Source: Pyruvatibacter mobilis (GTDB lineage: Bacteria > Pseudomonadota > Alphaproteobacteria > CGMCC-115125). From it: a stretch of 64,000 bases of DNA. The notes below the pieces were generated by a model. That model saw only the letters and a program-made list of their open reading frames with translations. It made no database searches and was not told where the DNA came from. This document shows, piece after piece, positions 47,786-52,320 of the stretch; positions within the stretch are counted from its first letter, which is position 1, and each line of letters opens with the position of its first letter. The stretch is from assembly GCF_012848855.1 (NCBI RefSeq), contig NZ_CP051630.1, positions 1,777,501 to 1,841,500 on the forward strand. Direction: 5' to 3'. The translations under genes were made by a program, and so were the position numbers.

Positions 47786-49408
47786 TCACCGCTCGGAGAC
47801 CGGCACGGCCGCCGGGGCACCATCGCGCAGCAGCTTGTAGGTGATCGAATCCATCAGGGCCTGGAAGGACGCATCCACGATGTTCGGCGAGACGCCGACA
47901 GTGGACCAGCGTGCTCCCTCCCCGTCCACACTTTCGATCATCACGCGGGTCACGGCCTCGGTACCGCTCGTCAGGATACGGACCTTGAAATCTGCCAGCC
48001 GCAGATCTTCGAGCCATGACGAGTACTTGCCGAGATCCTTGCGCAGGGCCTGGTCCAGCGCGTTGACGGGGCCGTTTCCCTCGCCCGCGCTCATGATGCT
48101 GACGCCGTCGACGGAGACCTTCACTGTCGCTTCGGACACGGTCACCAGTTCGCCCACCGCGTTGTAGCGGCGCTCCACCATCACGCGGAAGCTCTCCACT
48201 TCGAAGAAATGCGGCACCTCGCCCAGGGCGCGACGGGCCAGCAGTTCGAAGGAGGCTTCCGCACCGTCATAGGCGTAGCCGAGGAACTCGCGCTCCTTCA
48301 CCTCGTCCACAAGCCGCTTCACGCGCGGGTCCTGCGCCTCCACTTCGATGCCGGCGCTTTCGAGCTGCGCCAGCACGTTGGAGCGGCCCGCCTGGTCGGA
48401 CACCAGGATGCGGCGCTTGTTGCCTACCGCTTCCGGCGGCACATGCTCATAGGTGGAGGGGTCTTTCTGCACCGCGGAGACATGCAGCCCGCCCTTATGG
48501 GCAAAGGCCGACGCGCCCACATAGGGCTGATGCCGGTTCGGGGTGCGATTGAGGATTTCATCCAGCAGGCGGCTGACATGGGTCAGCTGCTTCAGGCTGT
48601 CATGGGGCACGCCGGTCTCGAAGCGGTCAGCGAATTCAGGCTTCAGCATCAGGGTTGGCAGCAGCGACACCATATTGGCATTGCCGCAGCGTTCACCCAG
48701 GCCGTTCAGTGTGCCCTGGATCTGCCGCACCCCGCCGCGGATCGCGGCCAGCGTGTTGGCCACGGCGTTTTCCGTGTCGTTATGGGCATGGATGCCCAGA
48801 TTGTCGCCGGGGATGTGCTTGGCCACCTCGCGGGTGATCGCCTCCACCTCATGGGGCAGCGTGCCGCCATTGGTGTCGCACAGCACCACCCAGCGCGCGC
48901 CCGCTGCCAGCGCCTCATTGGCGCAGGCGATGGCGTAGTCCGGGTTTGCTTTGTAGCCGTCGAAAAAATGCTCGCAGTCGATCATCGGCTCACGCTTGTG
49001 CTTGGTGATCGCCTGCACGCTGTCGCGAATGGCTTCGAGGTTTTCGTCAAGCGAGCAGCCAAGCGCAACTTCCACCTGGTGATCCCATGTCTTGGCGACG
49101 AGACACACCACGTCGGACTCTGCGTCGAACAGGGCCGCAAGCCCCGGATCATTGTCCGCCGACCGCCCCACGCGCTTGGTCATGCCGAAGGCGGTCATGC
49201 GTGCTGAATTAAGCCCGCGCTTTTCGCTGAAGAAGGCAGTGTCCGTCGGGTTGGCGCCAGGCCAACCGCCTTCCACATAGTCGATGCCCAGCTCGTCGAG
49301 GGTTTCGGCAATGCGGATCTTGTCCTCGACGCTGAAATCAACGCCCTGCGTCTGCGCGCCGTCGCGCAGGGTGGTGTCGAACAGGTAGAGACGTTCCTTG
49401 GAGCTCAT
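47786..49408 (-). CDS. cimA: Citramalate synthase
   Basis: 540 residues from the ATG at 49408, which has AAGGAC eight bases upstream. The DRE-TIM barrel begins LFDTTLRDGAQTQGVDF, then DYVEGGWPGANPTD, HAHNDTENAVANTL and FAHKGGLHVSAVQKD. The C-terminal allosteric LeuA-type domain covers about residues 390-530. The length and the GGWPGANP motif separate CimA from 2-isopropylmalate synthase. It condenses pyruvate and acetyl-CoA to (R)-citramalate, opening the threonine-independent route to isoleucine. It starts 14 bases after cysS, so the two are co-transcribed, and a Cys/Thr/Ile-codon leader ORF lies upstream of cysS. Confidence 0.92.
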   Translation of the reverse strand: MSSKERLYLFDTTLRDGAQTQGVDFSVEDKIRIAETLDELGIDYVEGGWPGANPTDTAFFSEKRGLNSARMTAFGMTKRVGRSADNDPGLAALFDAESDVVCLVAKTWDHQVEVALGCSLDENLEAIRDSVQAITKHKREPMIDCEHFFDGYKANPDYAIACANEALAAGARWVVLCDTNGGTLPHEVEAITREVAKHIPGDNLGIHAHNDTENAVANTLAAIRGGVRQIQGTLNGLGERCGNANMVSLLPTLMLKPEFADRFETGVPHDSLKQLTHVSRLLDEILNRTPNRHQPYVGASAFAHKGGLHVSAVQKDPSTYEHVPPEAVGNKRRILVSDQAGRSNVLAQLESAGIEVEAQDPRVKRLVDEVKEREFLGYAYDGAEASFELLARRALGEVPHFFEVESFRVMVERRYNAVGELVTVSEATVKVSVDGVSIMSAGEGNGPVNALDQALRKDLGKYSSWLEDLRLADFKVRILTSGTEAVTRVMIESVDGEGARWSTVGVSPNIVDASFQALMDSITYKLLRDGAPAAVPVSER

Positions 49409-49421
49409 TGTGCTTTGTCCT

Positions 49422-50798
49422 TCACGGCGCGACTGACCAGGTGGTGCCTTCCGGCCCGTCCTTGATCTCGACACCCATTGCCGTCAGTTCATCCCGCAGC
49501 CGGTCGGCCTCGGCAAAATCCTTCGCTTTGCGCGCGGCGTTGCGCGCAGCGATCATGTTTTCCACATGCGCGTCATCAATAGCAGATGACTGGGGCCGCC
49601 AGGCCGCCCATTCCTCCGCAGACTGACCAAACAGGCCCAGCAACTGGCCCGATGCTTTCAGGGCACGTGCGGCGTCTTCGCTGCCCTTTTGTGCCTCGCT
49701 GTAGAGGCCATGCATCACGGCAAGCGCCTGCGGCGTGTTGAAGTCGTCCAGCAGGGCCGCCGCCACGCTCGCCGGCACGTCATCTCCGGTTACGTTGCCT
49801 GCACCGGCGGTCACCTTGTACCAGCGGTCCAGAATGGCCTTGGCCTCACGCACGCCCTCCGCCGTCCAGTTCAGAGGCTGGCGGTAATGGGTCATGAACA
49901 GATGCAGCCGCAGCGCCTCGCCCGGCCAGTCCTCCAGCAGGTCGTGCACGACCAGGAAGTTGCCGAGGGACTTCGACATCTTCTCGCCGTCCACCTGCAG
50001 AAAGCCGCCATGCATCCAGTAATTGGCGAGCGCCGCACCGTCATGAGCGCAGGTGGATTGCGCCACCTCGTTTTCATGGTGCGGGAAGGCAAGGTCGATG
50101 CCGCCACCATGAATGTCGAAGGTTTCGCCCAGCAGCTCCTCGCTCATCACGGAGCATTCAAGATGCCAGCCCGGGCGGCCATTGCCCCACGGGCTGTCCC
50201 AGCCGGGCATGTCGTCGTCACTCGGCTTCCACAGCACGAAATCCGTCGCATTGCGCTTGTAGGGCGCCACTTCCACACGGGCCCCGGCAATCATGTCATC
50301 CAGCGACCGGCCGGACAGCTGGCCATAGTCCTTGTCTGACGAGACGTCGAACAGCACGTGGCCTTCCGCCTCATAGGCATGGCCCTTGTCGATGAGCGTC
50401 TGCACCATGGCGACCATCCCATCCACATAATCCGTCGCGCGCGGCTCATGGGTGGGCGTCAGTGCGCCGAGGCCCGCCATGTCCTTCTGGTAGACCTCGG
50501 CGGTGCCATTGGTCAGCTCACGGATCGAGATGCCCCGCTCCACAGCGCGAGCCATGATCTTGTCGTCGATGTCGGTGATGTTGCGCACATAGGTGACGTG
50601 CTCCACGCCATAGGCATAGCGCAGCACACGGAAAACGAGATCGAACGTCACCGCCGTGCGGCCATTGCCGATATGCGCATAGTCATAAACCGTGGGTCCG
50701 CAGGCATAGAGCCGCACATTTGCCGCGTCGATGGGCTCGAACACCCGCTTTTCGCGGCGTCCGGTGTCGTAGATGGTGAGCGTCACGTCACGCGACAT
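49422..50798 (-). CDS. cysS: Cysteinyl-tRNA synthetase
   Basis: 458 residues. It is a class I synthetase with HIGH-type motif HIGN in CGPTVYDYAHIGNGRTA. Zinc ligands lie in the same CGPT Cys, WHLECSVM, and FPHHENE, and the KMSKS motif is EKMSKSLGNF. It charges tRNA-Cys. The start ATG at 50798 has GAAGGAC just upstream, and that site follows directly after a small GC-rich hairpin (50814-50827). The 178-base gap to gltX holds the Cys-rich leader ORF described separately, which would make cysS-cimA expression respond to amino-acid supply. Confidence 0.97.
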   Translation of the reverse strand: MSRDVTLTIYDTGRREKRVFEPIDAANVRLYACGPTVYDYAHIGNGRTAVTFDLVFRVLRYAYGVEHVTYVRNITDIDDKIMARAVERGISIRELTNGTAEVYQKDMAGLGALTPTHEPRATDYVDGMVAMVQTLIDKGHAYEAEGHVLFDVSSDKDYGQLSGRSLDDMIAGARVEVAPYKRNATDFVLWKPSDDDMPGWDSPWGNGRPGWHLECSVMSEELLGETFDIHGGGIDLAFPHHENEVAQSTCAHDGAALANYWMHGGFLQVDGEKMSKSLGNFLVVHDLLEDWPGEALRLHLFMTHYRQPLNWTAEGVREAKAILDRWYKVTAGAGNVTGDDVPASVAAALLDDFNTPQALAVMHGLYSEAQKGSEDAARALKASGQLLGLFGQSAEEWAAWRPQSSAIDDAHVENMIAARNAARKAKDFAEADRLRDELTAMGVEIKDGPEGTTWSVAP

Positions 50799-50813
50799 AG
50801 AGTCCGTCCTTCA

Positions 50814-50827
50814 AGGCCTGCTGGCCT
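50814..50827 (-). other. Hairpin adjoining the cysS ribosome binding site
   Basis: On the minus strand AGGCC-AGCA-GGCCT forms a 5-bp stem, ending a few bases before the cysS GAAGGAC. Its 5' part (CGA-G-GCCAGC, 50820-50829) can alternatively pair with GCTGGCTCG at 50874-50882, the 3' arm of the leader hairpin. Confidence 0.5.
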
Positions 50828-50875
50828 CGGGGCGAAACGTCTTGTCTGGGATCAGGATTTTGACGAACGGCCGCG

Positions 50876-50896
50876 AGCCAGCGTTTTGCGCTAGCT
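50876..50896 (-). promoter_or_regulatory. Leader hairpin covering the leader-ORF stop codon
   Basis: Minus-strand AGCTAGCG-CAAAA-CGCTGGCT: an 8-bp stem with one U-G pair and a 5-base loop. The TAG stop of the leader ORF lies in the 5' arm, so a ribosome finishing the ORF would melt it. The 3' arm is complementary to the hairpin next to the cysS start. Confidence 0.55.
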
Positions 50897-50944
50897 GATA
50901 ATAATGGTGCAGCAAATGCACGCGGTGGTGGCGGCGATGGTCAT
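50891..50944 (-). CDS. Putative Cys/Thr/Ile-codon leader peptide of cysS-cimA
   Basis: A 17-residue ORF reading MTIAATTACICCTIIIS. Three Cys, four Thr and five Ile codons in 17 is far from normal composition. It lies between gltX (stop at 50977) and cysS (start at 50798) on the same strand. The adjacent genes charge tRNA-Cys (cysS) and make isoleucine precursors (cimA), so codon content and downstream function agree, as in thr/ilv attenuator leaders. No good Shine-Dalgarno precedes the ATG. However, TTGATT (50980-50975) and CAAAGT (50957-50952), spaced by 17 bases, would place a transcript start at or next to the ATG, suggesting a leaderless mRNA. Translation is unproven. Confidence 0.55.
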   Translation of the reverse strand: MTIAATTACICCTIIIS

Positions 50945-50951
50945 GAGCCGG

Positions 50952-50980
50952 ACTTTGGCGACAAAGCCTTAAAAAATCAA
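50952..50980 (-). promoter_or_regulatory. Possible promoter of the leader-cysS-cimA unit
   Basis: Minus-strand TTGATT (-35-like, overlapping the gltX stop) and CAAAGT (-10-like, weak) with a 17-base spacer. The predicted transcript start is within a base or two of the leader ATG at 50944. A short T-run (TTTTTT) just after the gltX stop could also end some gltX transcripts. This is a weak match. Confidence 0.35.
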
Positions 50981-52320
50981 CCCATATCCCCGGCAAGCCG
51001 GCTGCGCGCCTTGTCGCGGCCGATGAGCGGCAGCAGCGCCTTCAGTTCCGGGCCGTGATCAAGGCCGGTCAGCGCCAGCCGAAGCGGCATGAACAGGCCC
51101 TTGCCCTTGGCGCCAGTCTCGGCCTTCACAGCATCTGTCCAGGTCTTCCAGGTGGTCTCGTCCCAGGGTTCCGGCGGCAGCAGGGCGGCTGCGGCCTGCG
51201 CAAAGGCCGGATCCTCGATCACCGGCGAAATCTCCCCCTCAGTGATCGTCTTCCACAGGGCTGCATCGGCAAGCGTCTCGAGATTGCCGCGAATGGCCGC
51301 CCACAGCTCCGGCGACATATCTATGCCCCGGGCAGCAAGCCGGTCCGCGACCTGGTCAAAGGCTGCCTCATGCAGCCAGTCCGCATTGAGGCGGGCAATG
51401 TCGTCCACCGCGTAATGCCCCGGCGCGCGGCCGAACTTCGAAAACTCGAAATTCTCCACCAGAGCCTCAAGGCTCATGGGCCGCACATCATCGGAGGTGC
51501 CGAGCAGCGCCAGATAGCTCGTCAGCGCCTCCGGCTCGAGGCCCATGGCGCGCACTTCCTCCACGCTGGCACCGCCCTCGCGCTTGGACAGCTTCGCCCC
51601 GCCCGCCGCCACCATCAGCGGGAAATGACCAAACACAGGAAGCTTCGTACCAATCGCTTCCCATAGCTCAATCTGAACACCTGTATTTGTCACATGGTCT
51701 TCGCCACGCAGAACATTCGTTATGCCCAGTTCGCTGTCATCCACCGCAGATGGCAGCATGTAGGTATAGGTGCCGTCCTCCCGGATCAGCACCGGGTCGG
51801 ACAGTGACGCGGTCTCGATGGATTGCGGCCCGCGCACGAGATCGTTCCACGACACGGTGTCATGGGACAGCTTGAAGCGCCAATGGGGCGTGCGGCCCTC
51901 GGCCTCCAGCGCTGTGCGCTCGTCGGCACTCAGCTCAAGGGCGGCGCGGTCATAGACAGGCGGCTTGCCCCGGGCGAGCTGGCGCTTGCGGCGGCGGTCC
52001 AGTTCCGCGGGAGTCTCGTAGCAGGGATAAAGCAGCCCGCGCGCCTTCAGCGTCTCCGCGGCGGCATCATAGGTTGCAAGCCGGTCCGACTGGCGGGTTA
52101 CCTCGTCGAAATCGAGACCCGCCCAGGCAAGGTCATCGGCAATCGCGTCGGCATATTCCCGCGTCGAGCGGGCCAGATCCGTATCATCGAAGCGCAGCAC
52201 GATGCTGCCGCCCATCTTGCGGGTATAGAGCCAGTTGAGCAGCGCGGCTCGCAGGTTGCCCACATGCAGCGCCCCTGTCGGGCTGGGCGCAAAGCGGGTT
52301 CGGACCGTATTAGCGGGCAT
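50977..52320 (-). CDS. gltX: Glutamyl-tRNA synthetase
   Basis: 447 residues. It is a class I synthetase with HIGH motif HVGN in FAPSPTGALHVGNLRAALLN, the GluRS segment RFDDTDLARSTREY, and the KMSKS-type motif AKLSKREGGASVEE. The C-terminal anticodon-binding region is short. Only one copy is visible here, though alphaproteobacteria often carry two, one of which may charge tRNA-Gln for the GatCAB route; I cannot tell which this is. Its start overlaps the nadE end by 11 bases, so the two are probably co-transcribed. It is upstream of the cysS leader. Confidence 0.93.
   Translation of the reverse strand: MPANTVRTRFAPSPTGALHVGNLRAALLNWLYTRKMGGSIVLRFDDTDLARSTREYADAIADDLAWAGLDFDEVTRQSDRLATYDAAAETLKARGLLYPCYETPAELDRRRKRQLARGKPPVYDRAALELSADERTALEAEGRTPHWRFKLSHDTVSWNDLVRGPQSIETASLSDPVLIREDGTYTYMLPSAVDDSELGITNVLRGEDHVTNTGVQIELWEAIGTKLPVFGHFPLMVAAGGAKLSKREGGASVEEVRAMGLEPEALTSYLALLGTSDDVRPMSLEALVENFEFSKFGRAPGHYAVDDIARLNADWLHEAAFDQVADRLAARGIDMSPELWAAIRGNLETLADAALWKTITEGEISPVIEDPAFAQAAAALLPPEPWDETTWKTWTDAVKAETGAKGKGLFMPLRLALTGLDHGPELKALLPLIGRDKARSRLAGDMG

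Follow-up and report, generated by a model that had tools for sequence, protein, structure and literature searches.

A short ORF rich in Cys and Ile codons lies between gltX and cysS

The window, by which we mean the whole 64,000-nucleotide stretch of Pyruvatibacter mobilis DNA that was analysed, carries on its minus strand gltX (50977-52320), followed by cysS, encoding a cysteine--tRNA ligase (49422-50798; TIGR00435, 486 bits), and cimA, encoding a citramalate synthase (47786-49408 from its ATG start; TIGR00977, 671 bits). Essentially no gap separates cysS from cimA, and an alternative GTG start of cimA at 49474 would make the two genes overlap. Between gltX and cysS the same strand encodes the leader ORF MTIAATTACICCTIIIS (50891-50944), which reads ATG ACC ATC GCC GCC ACC ACC GCG TGC ATT TGC TGC ACC ATT ATT ATC AGC TAG from 50944 to 50891, its TAG stop codon occupying 50893-50891. 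Its 17 codons specify three Cys (codons 9, 11 and 12), five Ile (codons 3, 10, 14, 15 and 16) and four Thr, precisely as the preliminary description had stated.

When the 672 short ATG ORFs (8-30 aa) of the window were searched for at least three Cys and at least four Ile within the last 12 codons, the leader ORF was the single one found, and when the window was dinucleotide-shuffled 100 times, none of the resulting 71,823 short ORFs was comparable. Short ORFs are common enough for the leader to be imagined as a functionless product of chance in the gltX-cysS gap, but the result of the shuffles, its retention in congeners and the class-wide tracking of downstream genes described below make the probability of this negligible.

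Close relatives were represented by three congeners, the genus being alone in its order among the genomes compared. All three carry the leader as MKTAATIWCICC(T/A)IIIS and a stop codon, followed by a nearly identical RNA sequence; the gltX-proximal part of the gltX-cysS gap varies among them in length and sequence. Since codons and structure are inseparable when DNA is conserved to this degree, more distant genomes were needed.

Leader composition follows the downstream gene in Alphaproteobacteria

We gathered cysS and cimA loci across the Alphaproteobacteria and divided them into three classes: cysS-cimA, cysS alone and cimA alone. Short ORFs were considered if they stopped 20 nt or more ahead of the gene, and each of the 20 residues was scored by its highest count over the final 12 codons of any one of them. 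Every intergenic stretch was dinucleotide-shuffled 200 times for comparison. Loci were weighted by greedy clusters at 80% identity, which corresponds to about genus depth; these replaced single linkage at 72% identity, which had chained relatives into 8-10 clusters. The statistic was picked after examples had been seen, with all residues treated alike and the single-gene classes serving as internal controls.

Upstream of cysS-cimA (86 loci, 54 clusters) Ile was enriched with z=15.3 and Cys with z=7.6, followed by Asp at 2.4, and no other residue exceeded 2.5. Upstream of cysS alone (57 loci, 27 clusters) only the Cys signal was present (z=5.4, against z=-1.4 for Ile), and upstream of cimA alone (50 loci, 17 clusters) only that of Ile (z=7.0, against z=-0.1 for Cys). 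An Ile signal before cysS alone (z=4.0) came from cysS/cimA loci with a one-gene gap that had been miscounted as cysS alone, and it was gone after reclassification. Trp was mildly enriched (z about 3.3-3.5) in short ORFs before cysS alone and before cimA alone, for no evident reason.

Short ORFs bearing both residues upstream of cysS-cimA include MTTTEPQRSISICCIIIC, MARICNQCCLIITG, MTEPTRIPVAIICSIIICA and MTTARKYAVHMCGIIICI; ..RWCCA, ..VLCCCA and MTCRCCRKNTTESPA are examples of Cys-bearing ORFs before cysS alone, and MNIINAIIIKGLIISG and MSPALSIITGLIISG of Ile-bearing ORFs before cimA alone, the latter two behind gltX in the family of G012. In one family in which the genes lie apart, MTCRCCRKNTTESPA precedes cysS and MNIINAIIIKGLIISG precedes cimA. 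Leader composition as read from the sequences thus switches with the downstream gene, and we consider this double dissociation to be the best evidence for an attenuator. The match between leader codons and operon that had been noted for the window is therefore a property of Cys/Ile ORFs enriched across the class. Sensing of Thr, proposed alongside it, did not hold up: Thr was not enriched before cysS-cimA (z=1.5), and its count falls from four in the window to three or two in the congeners, so only Cys and Ile appear meaningful. Among the weighted cysS-cimA loci about 31% attain a count of three for Ile and 13% do so for Cys, and such a leader is absent at many alphaproteobacterial cysS-cimA loci.

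Two further kinds of ORF were observed in the course of this comparison. At four loci of one lineage, longer ORFs of 34-41 codons, of the type YLRIITLPGLCTGERCAGVACTARCCA, lie upstream of cysS-cimA and show conserved Ile followed by scattered Cys, a different leader layout. At another locus a very Cys-rich ORF of 42 residues (KTCSCSCCEGKCCTNCVCTDVCVPDCPCGCCA), 189-63 nt upstream of cysS, is metallothionein-like rather than leader-like.

Alternative pairings are predicted around the leader stop codon

Three RNA segments on the minus strand make up the predicted motif at and beyond the leader stop codon. Segment 1, AGCUAGCG (50889-50896), includes the leader stop codon and contains GCTAGC in 16 of 23 aligned loci. 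Segment 2, GCUGGCUCGCGGCCGUUC (50865-50882), in which CTGGC is invariant in the 23 aligned loci, can pair either with segment 1 or with segment 3, GACGUUUCGCCCCGAGGCCAGC (50820-50841). In this species the 2:3 duplex has a predicted energy of -23.7 kcal/mol (shuffle p 0.025). Sequence and folding also indicate a possible 3:4 hairpin, CGAGGCC-AGCA-GGCCUUG (50812-50829), directly before the cysS Shine-Dalgarno sequence AAGGA (50811-50807) and with no U-run after it. The same order recurs in the loci that share the motif: segment 1 as GC-UAG-C over the stop codon, a few nucleotides, segment 2 as GCUGGC...GGCCGUUC and, some 20-50 nt further on and close to cysS, segment 3 as GAACGCC..GGCCAGC.

Across these loci the energy of the 2:3 duplex ranges from -17 to -29 kcal/mol, with a mean z of -1.9 against shuffles and p<=0.05 in 14 of the 27. 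Its inner six pairs are paired in 95.7% of cells, compared with 5-48% when slid, and vary mainly by G-U exchanges; the outer part shows the compensatory forms GUUC/GAAC, GCUU/AAGC and GUC/GAC, by inspection rather than by formal count. Helix 1:2 is nearly invariant and hence offers no covariation support. As a whole, the leader region folds slightly better than chance (z -1.5). Upstream of cimA alone, leaders of the G012 family have an analogous layout in a different sequence, with the stop codon in AGCGGCUGA, then CCGCCGCCG and then GGUGGCGG.

An RNA motif model built from 23 motif loci and run on 387 genomes matched the window genus and then three further sites up to E=0.0011. Two of these lie before cysS, with leaders MKTVVCIICGKIIR and MNGLLAICAICREITS; the third, a strong match in G296, and nearly all weaker matches lie away from cysS, and the model is a poor detector. 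Neither the window region nor any of 18 leader loci had a meaningful match in Rfam scans, and no cis-regulatory family, the T-box included, reached the gathering score.

The conserved object might also be an RNA structure or the site of a regulator, of which the ORF would be a by-product. The stretch is nearly invariant in DNA within the genus and, while the window stem over the stop codon (1:2) excludes the Cys codons, these can form a small separate hairpin (GUGCA-UUUGC-UGCAC). Across families, however, the nucleotides upstream of the stop differ and the Cys and Ile codons persist in frame through the synonymous exchanges ATT/ATC and TGC/TGT. Together with the switch of composition with the downstream gene, this makes a by-product very improbable.

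A predicted promoter would place the transcript start at the leader AUG

A putative leader promoter (50952-50980, minus strand) consists of TTGATT (50980-50975), a 17-nt spacer and CAAAGT (50957-50952), with 7 nt to the leader ATG. Its −35 box, which overlaps the gltX stop codon, has a position shared by relatives: at 26 of the 27 motif loci TTGAC, or TTGATT in this genus, precedes the leader start codon by 35-38 nt, compared with 0.9% (the chance per start) in shuffled upstream sequence. At these 26 loci an in-frame ATG (once GTG) located 13-23 codons ahead of the stop serves as the start; in most loci a −10-like hexamer (CATAAG, CATTTT or CAAAGT) ends about 7-8 nt before it. A sigma-70 consensus scan of the window left this promoter uncalled, because both hexamers deviate from consensus in this species. 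The fixed distance supports the chosen start codon and predicts an independent transcript; it follows that the leader mRNA probably begins at or near its AUG.

In this predicted leaderless start the element resembles trpL (rnTrpL/peTrpL) of Sinorhizobium meliloti, the mRNA of which starts at the AUG (PMC10117765). As the leader of that type is also described, in the part of the source available, as having trans roles (PMC7298713), we considered whether the window leader works chiefly in trans, in the form of a small RNA or a peptide. Its codon content, however, is tied to the gene immediately behind it, an indication of control in cis, and the N-termini of the peptides are not conserved. A role mainly in trans is accordingly improbable.

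Codon positions, modelled ribosome stalling and possible output

In the dual leaders that share the RNA motif, Ile stands 3 codons before the stop in 24 of 27 and 4 codons before it in 24 of 27; Cys peaks at 6-7 codons before the stop (18), 2 codons (8) and 9 codons (7). Within a set of 20 Ile-rich cimA-alone leaders, selected for Ile near the stop, Ile is at positions 3 and 4 in 20/20 and at positions 8 and 9 in 19-20. Codon choice is biased as well: ATT makes up 69% of Ile codons in the leaders but 20% in cysS/cimA of the same loci, the kind of bias discussed for the regulatory codons of attenuators (PMC1183508).

We modelled the effect of ribosome position by folding the RNA with a footprint whose downstream edge lies 12 nt beyond the first A-site base. 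With the ribosome placed 1-4 codons ahead of the stop, mean P(2:3) was 0.78-0.87 and mean P(1:2) 0-0.07; with a stall 5 or more codons ahead of it, the respective values were about 0.37-0.41 and 0.54-0.59. In silico, the pairings near the leader stop are therefore mutually exclusive and dependent on ribosome position. The Ile positions fall within the switching range. Most Cys codons, at 6-9 codons before the stop, lie where a stalled ribosome would not cover segment 1, and the model therefore accounts for Ile more readily than for Cys.

This asymmetry is what would be expected if the leader sensed only Ile, the Cys codons being passive or setting a basal rate and cysS being carried along with cimA. 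The specific enrichment of Cys before cysS-cimA and before cysS only, and not before cimA only, argues against this reading, as do those cysS-only leaders in which Cys occupies the switching range, 2-4 codons from the stop (..RWCCA and ..VLCCCA, each followed by the stop codon). We regard Ile-only sensing as rather unlikely.

Regarding the output, no intrinsic terminator (GC hairpin plus U-run) was found between the leader stop and cysS in the window or in most relatives; a terminator scan of the window gave only a weak hairpin inside the ORF. The absence of a U-run terminator from the window leaves transcription termination of the trp type unsupported. The 24 nt after segment 2 contain 29% C and 18% G; such a C-rich stretch may suit a Rho site, although it proves nothing. 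Accessibility of the cysS ribosome-binding site in the two states showed no consistent change over 25 loci (6 up, 4 down), and a translational switch by Shine-Dalgarno sequestration, hinted at by single cases, was unsupported over the same 25 loci. The preliminary description had called the codon match the classical sign of ribosome-mediated attenuation; the match holds, and alternative pairings are predicted in silico, but no classical terminator was found in the window.

A proposed two-input attenuator

Taking these results together, we assign a probability of roughly 0.8 to the reading that the cysS-cimA operon is under ribosome-mediated attenuation by this element, which would sense how far tRNA-Ile and tRNA-Cys are charged. 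Transcription from a dedicated promoter would probably yield an mRNA starting at the AUG of the 17-codon leader. With charged tRNAs plentiful, the ribosome would complete the leader and leave, 1:2 would pair, and segment 3 would be free for its own hairpin beside the cysS ribosome-binding site, which we take as the off state. Under a shortage of Ile-tRNA, stalling at the Ile codons, 2-4 codons ahead of the stop, would put the ribosome over segment 1; 2:3 would then pair as the on state, raising cysS and cimA. More cysS would serve charging, and more cimA the entry step of the Ile pathway that does without threonine, with the Cys codons acting as a second input to the operon, for cysS. The output could be transcription termination, possibly Rho-dependent, or translation initiation. 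Of this scheme, sequence comparison shows the ORF, the way its Cys and Ile codons track cysS and cimA, where the promoter lies and the alternative pairings, and we infer translation of the ORF, stalling, the direction of regulation, the output step and the relay of stalling at the Cys codons.

Beyond this genus, it seems fairly probable that we are dealing with a widespread alphaproteobacterial two-input switch, in which a single leader monitors both tRNA-Cys and tRNA-Ile, since the operon contains a gene devoted to either amino acid, and in which each leader would be left with its own amino acid once rearrangement has separated the genes. The Ile-only leaders before cimA (L115, L117, L118, L283-L306; the G012 family), which lie behind gltX and have their own stem architecture, apparently constitute an undescribed cimA attenuator. 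The codon match goes with the genes even where they are located apart, and this provides a natural experiment on attenuator evolution. A Cys and Ile leader also makes a clear prediction of two-signal control, and it offers a way of annotating, in many Alphaproteobacteria and by sequence alone, both the regulation of cysS and isoleucine synthesis of the cimA type.

Comparison with known systems

The closest published element is uORFC-8-2, a probable cysteine attenuator with 145 examples in Rhodobacterales, where a short ORF with tandem Cys codons directly precedes cysS and a U-run follows (PMC8632094, as far as the accessible part of that paper goes). The window leader shares with it a short ORF that carries Cys codons ahead of an alphaproteobacterial cysS, and the proposal of ribosome-mediated attenuation. 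The accessible part of that description covers Rhodobacterales only, places the tandem Cys codons in the first stem, includes a U-run terminator and mentions neither Ile codons nor cimA (PMC8632094). The window differs by an Ile run beside the stop, by its RNA motif and by the lack of a U-run behind the final stem. Five leaders upstream of cysS-cimA in our set end in RCC...RITG/RITA/RVIA, mostly with Ile close to the stop, which lies 52-54 nt before cysS. Their resemblance to the uORFC-8-2 type suggests that those published cysteine attenuators may also read isoleucine.

A literature search in which subscription journals were thinly covered returned no cimA leaders, no combined Cys/Ile leaders and no other cysS leaders, and a search by the name uORFC-8-2 returned PMC8632094 as the only paper. 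The novelty first claimed for a combined sensor is thus narrowed: the Cys half is known for Rhodobacterales from the accessible part of that paper, and it is the Cys and Ile leader, the Ile-only cimA leader and the RNA motif that we did not find described. Actinobacterial cysteine leaders likewise have runs of Cys codons near the stop and no clear terminator, and Rho-dependent termination has been suggested for them; they precede cys biosynthesis or cbs genes rather than cysS, and Ile codons go unmentioned in the accessible part of their description (PMC1262725).

With attenuators of the trp type the element has in common regulatory codons near the stop of a short leader ORF and alternative pairings around the stop codon; it differs by its two unrelated amino acids, by the combination of one tRNA synthetase and one biosynthetic enzyme in the same operon, and by the terminator, which was not found. 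In the broad sense of a ribosome-mediated attenuator, a short ORF with codons for the amino acids of the downstream genes, the element probably belongs to that class; we assign it neither to the trp-type terminator attenuators nor to uORFC-8-2, because the U-run that defines both was sought and not found.

Enterobacteria provide the familiar multi-amino-acid leaders thrL (Thr and Ile) and ilvL (Ile, Val and Leu), and the pheST leader controls a tRNA synthetase gene. The window leader resembles these in that one leader would read several amino acids or govern a tRNA synthetase gene. In those systems, however, the amino acids belong to one connected pathway, whereas the Cys and Ile codons described here each correspond to a separate gene of the operon, and the functions of the two genes are unrelated.
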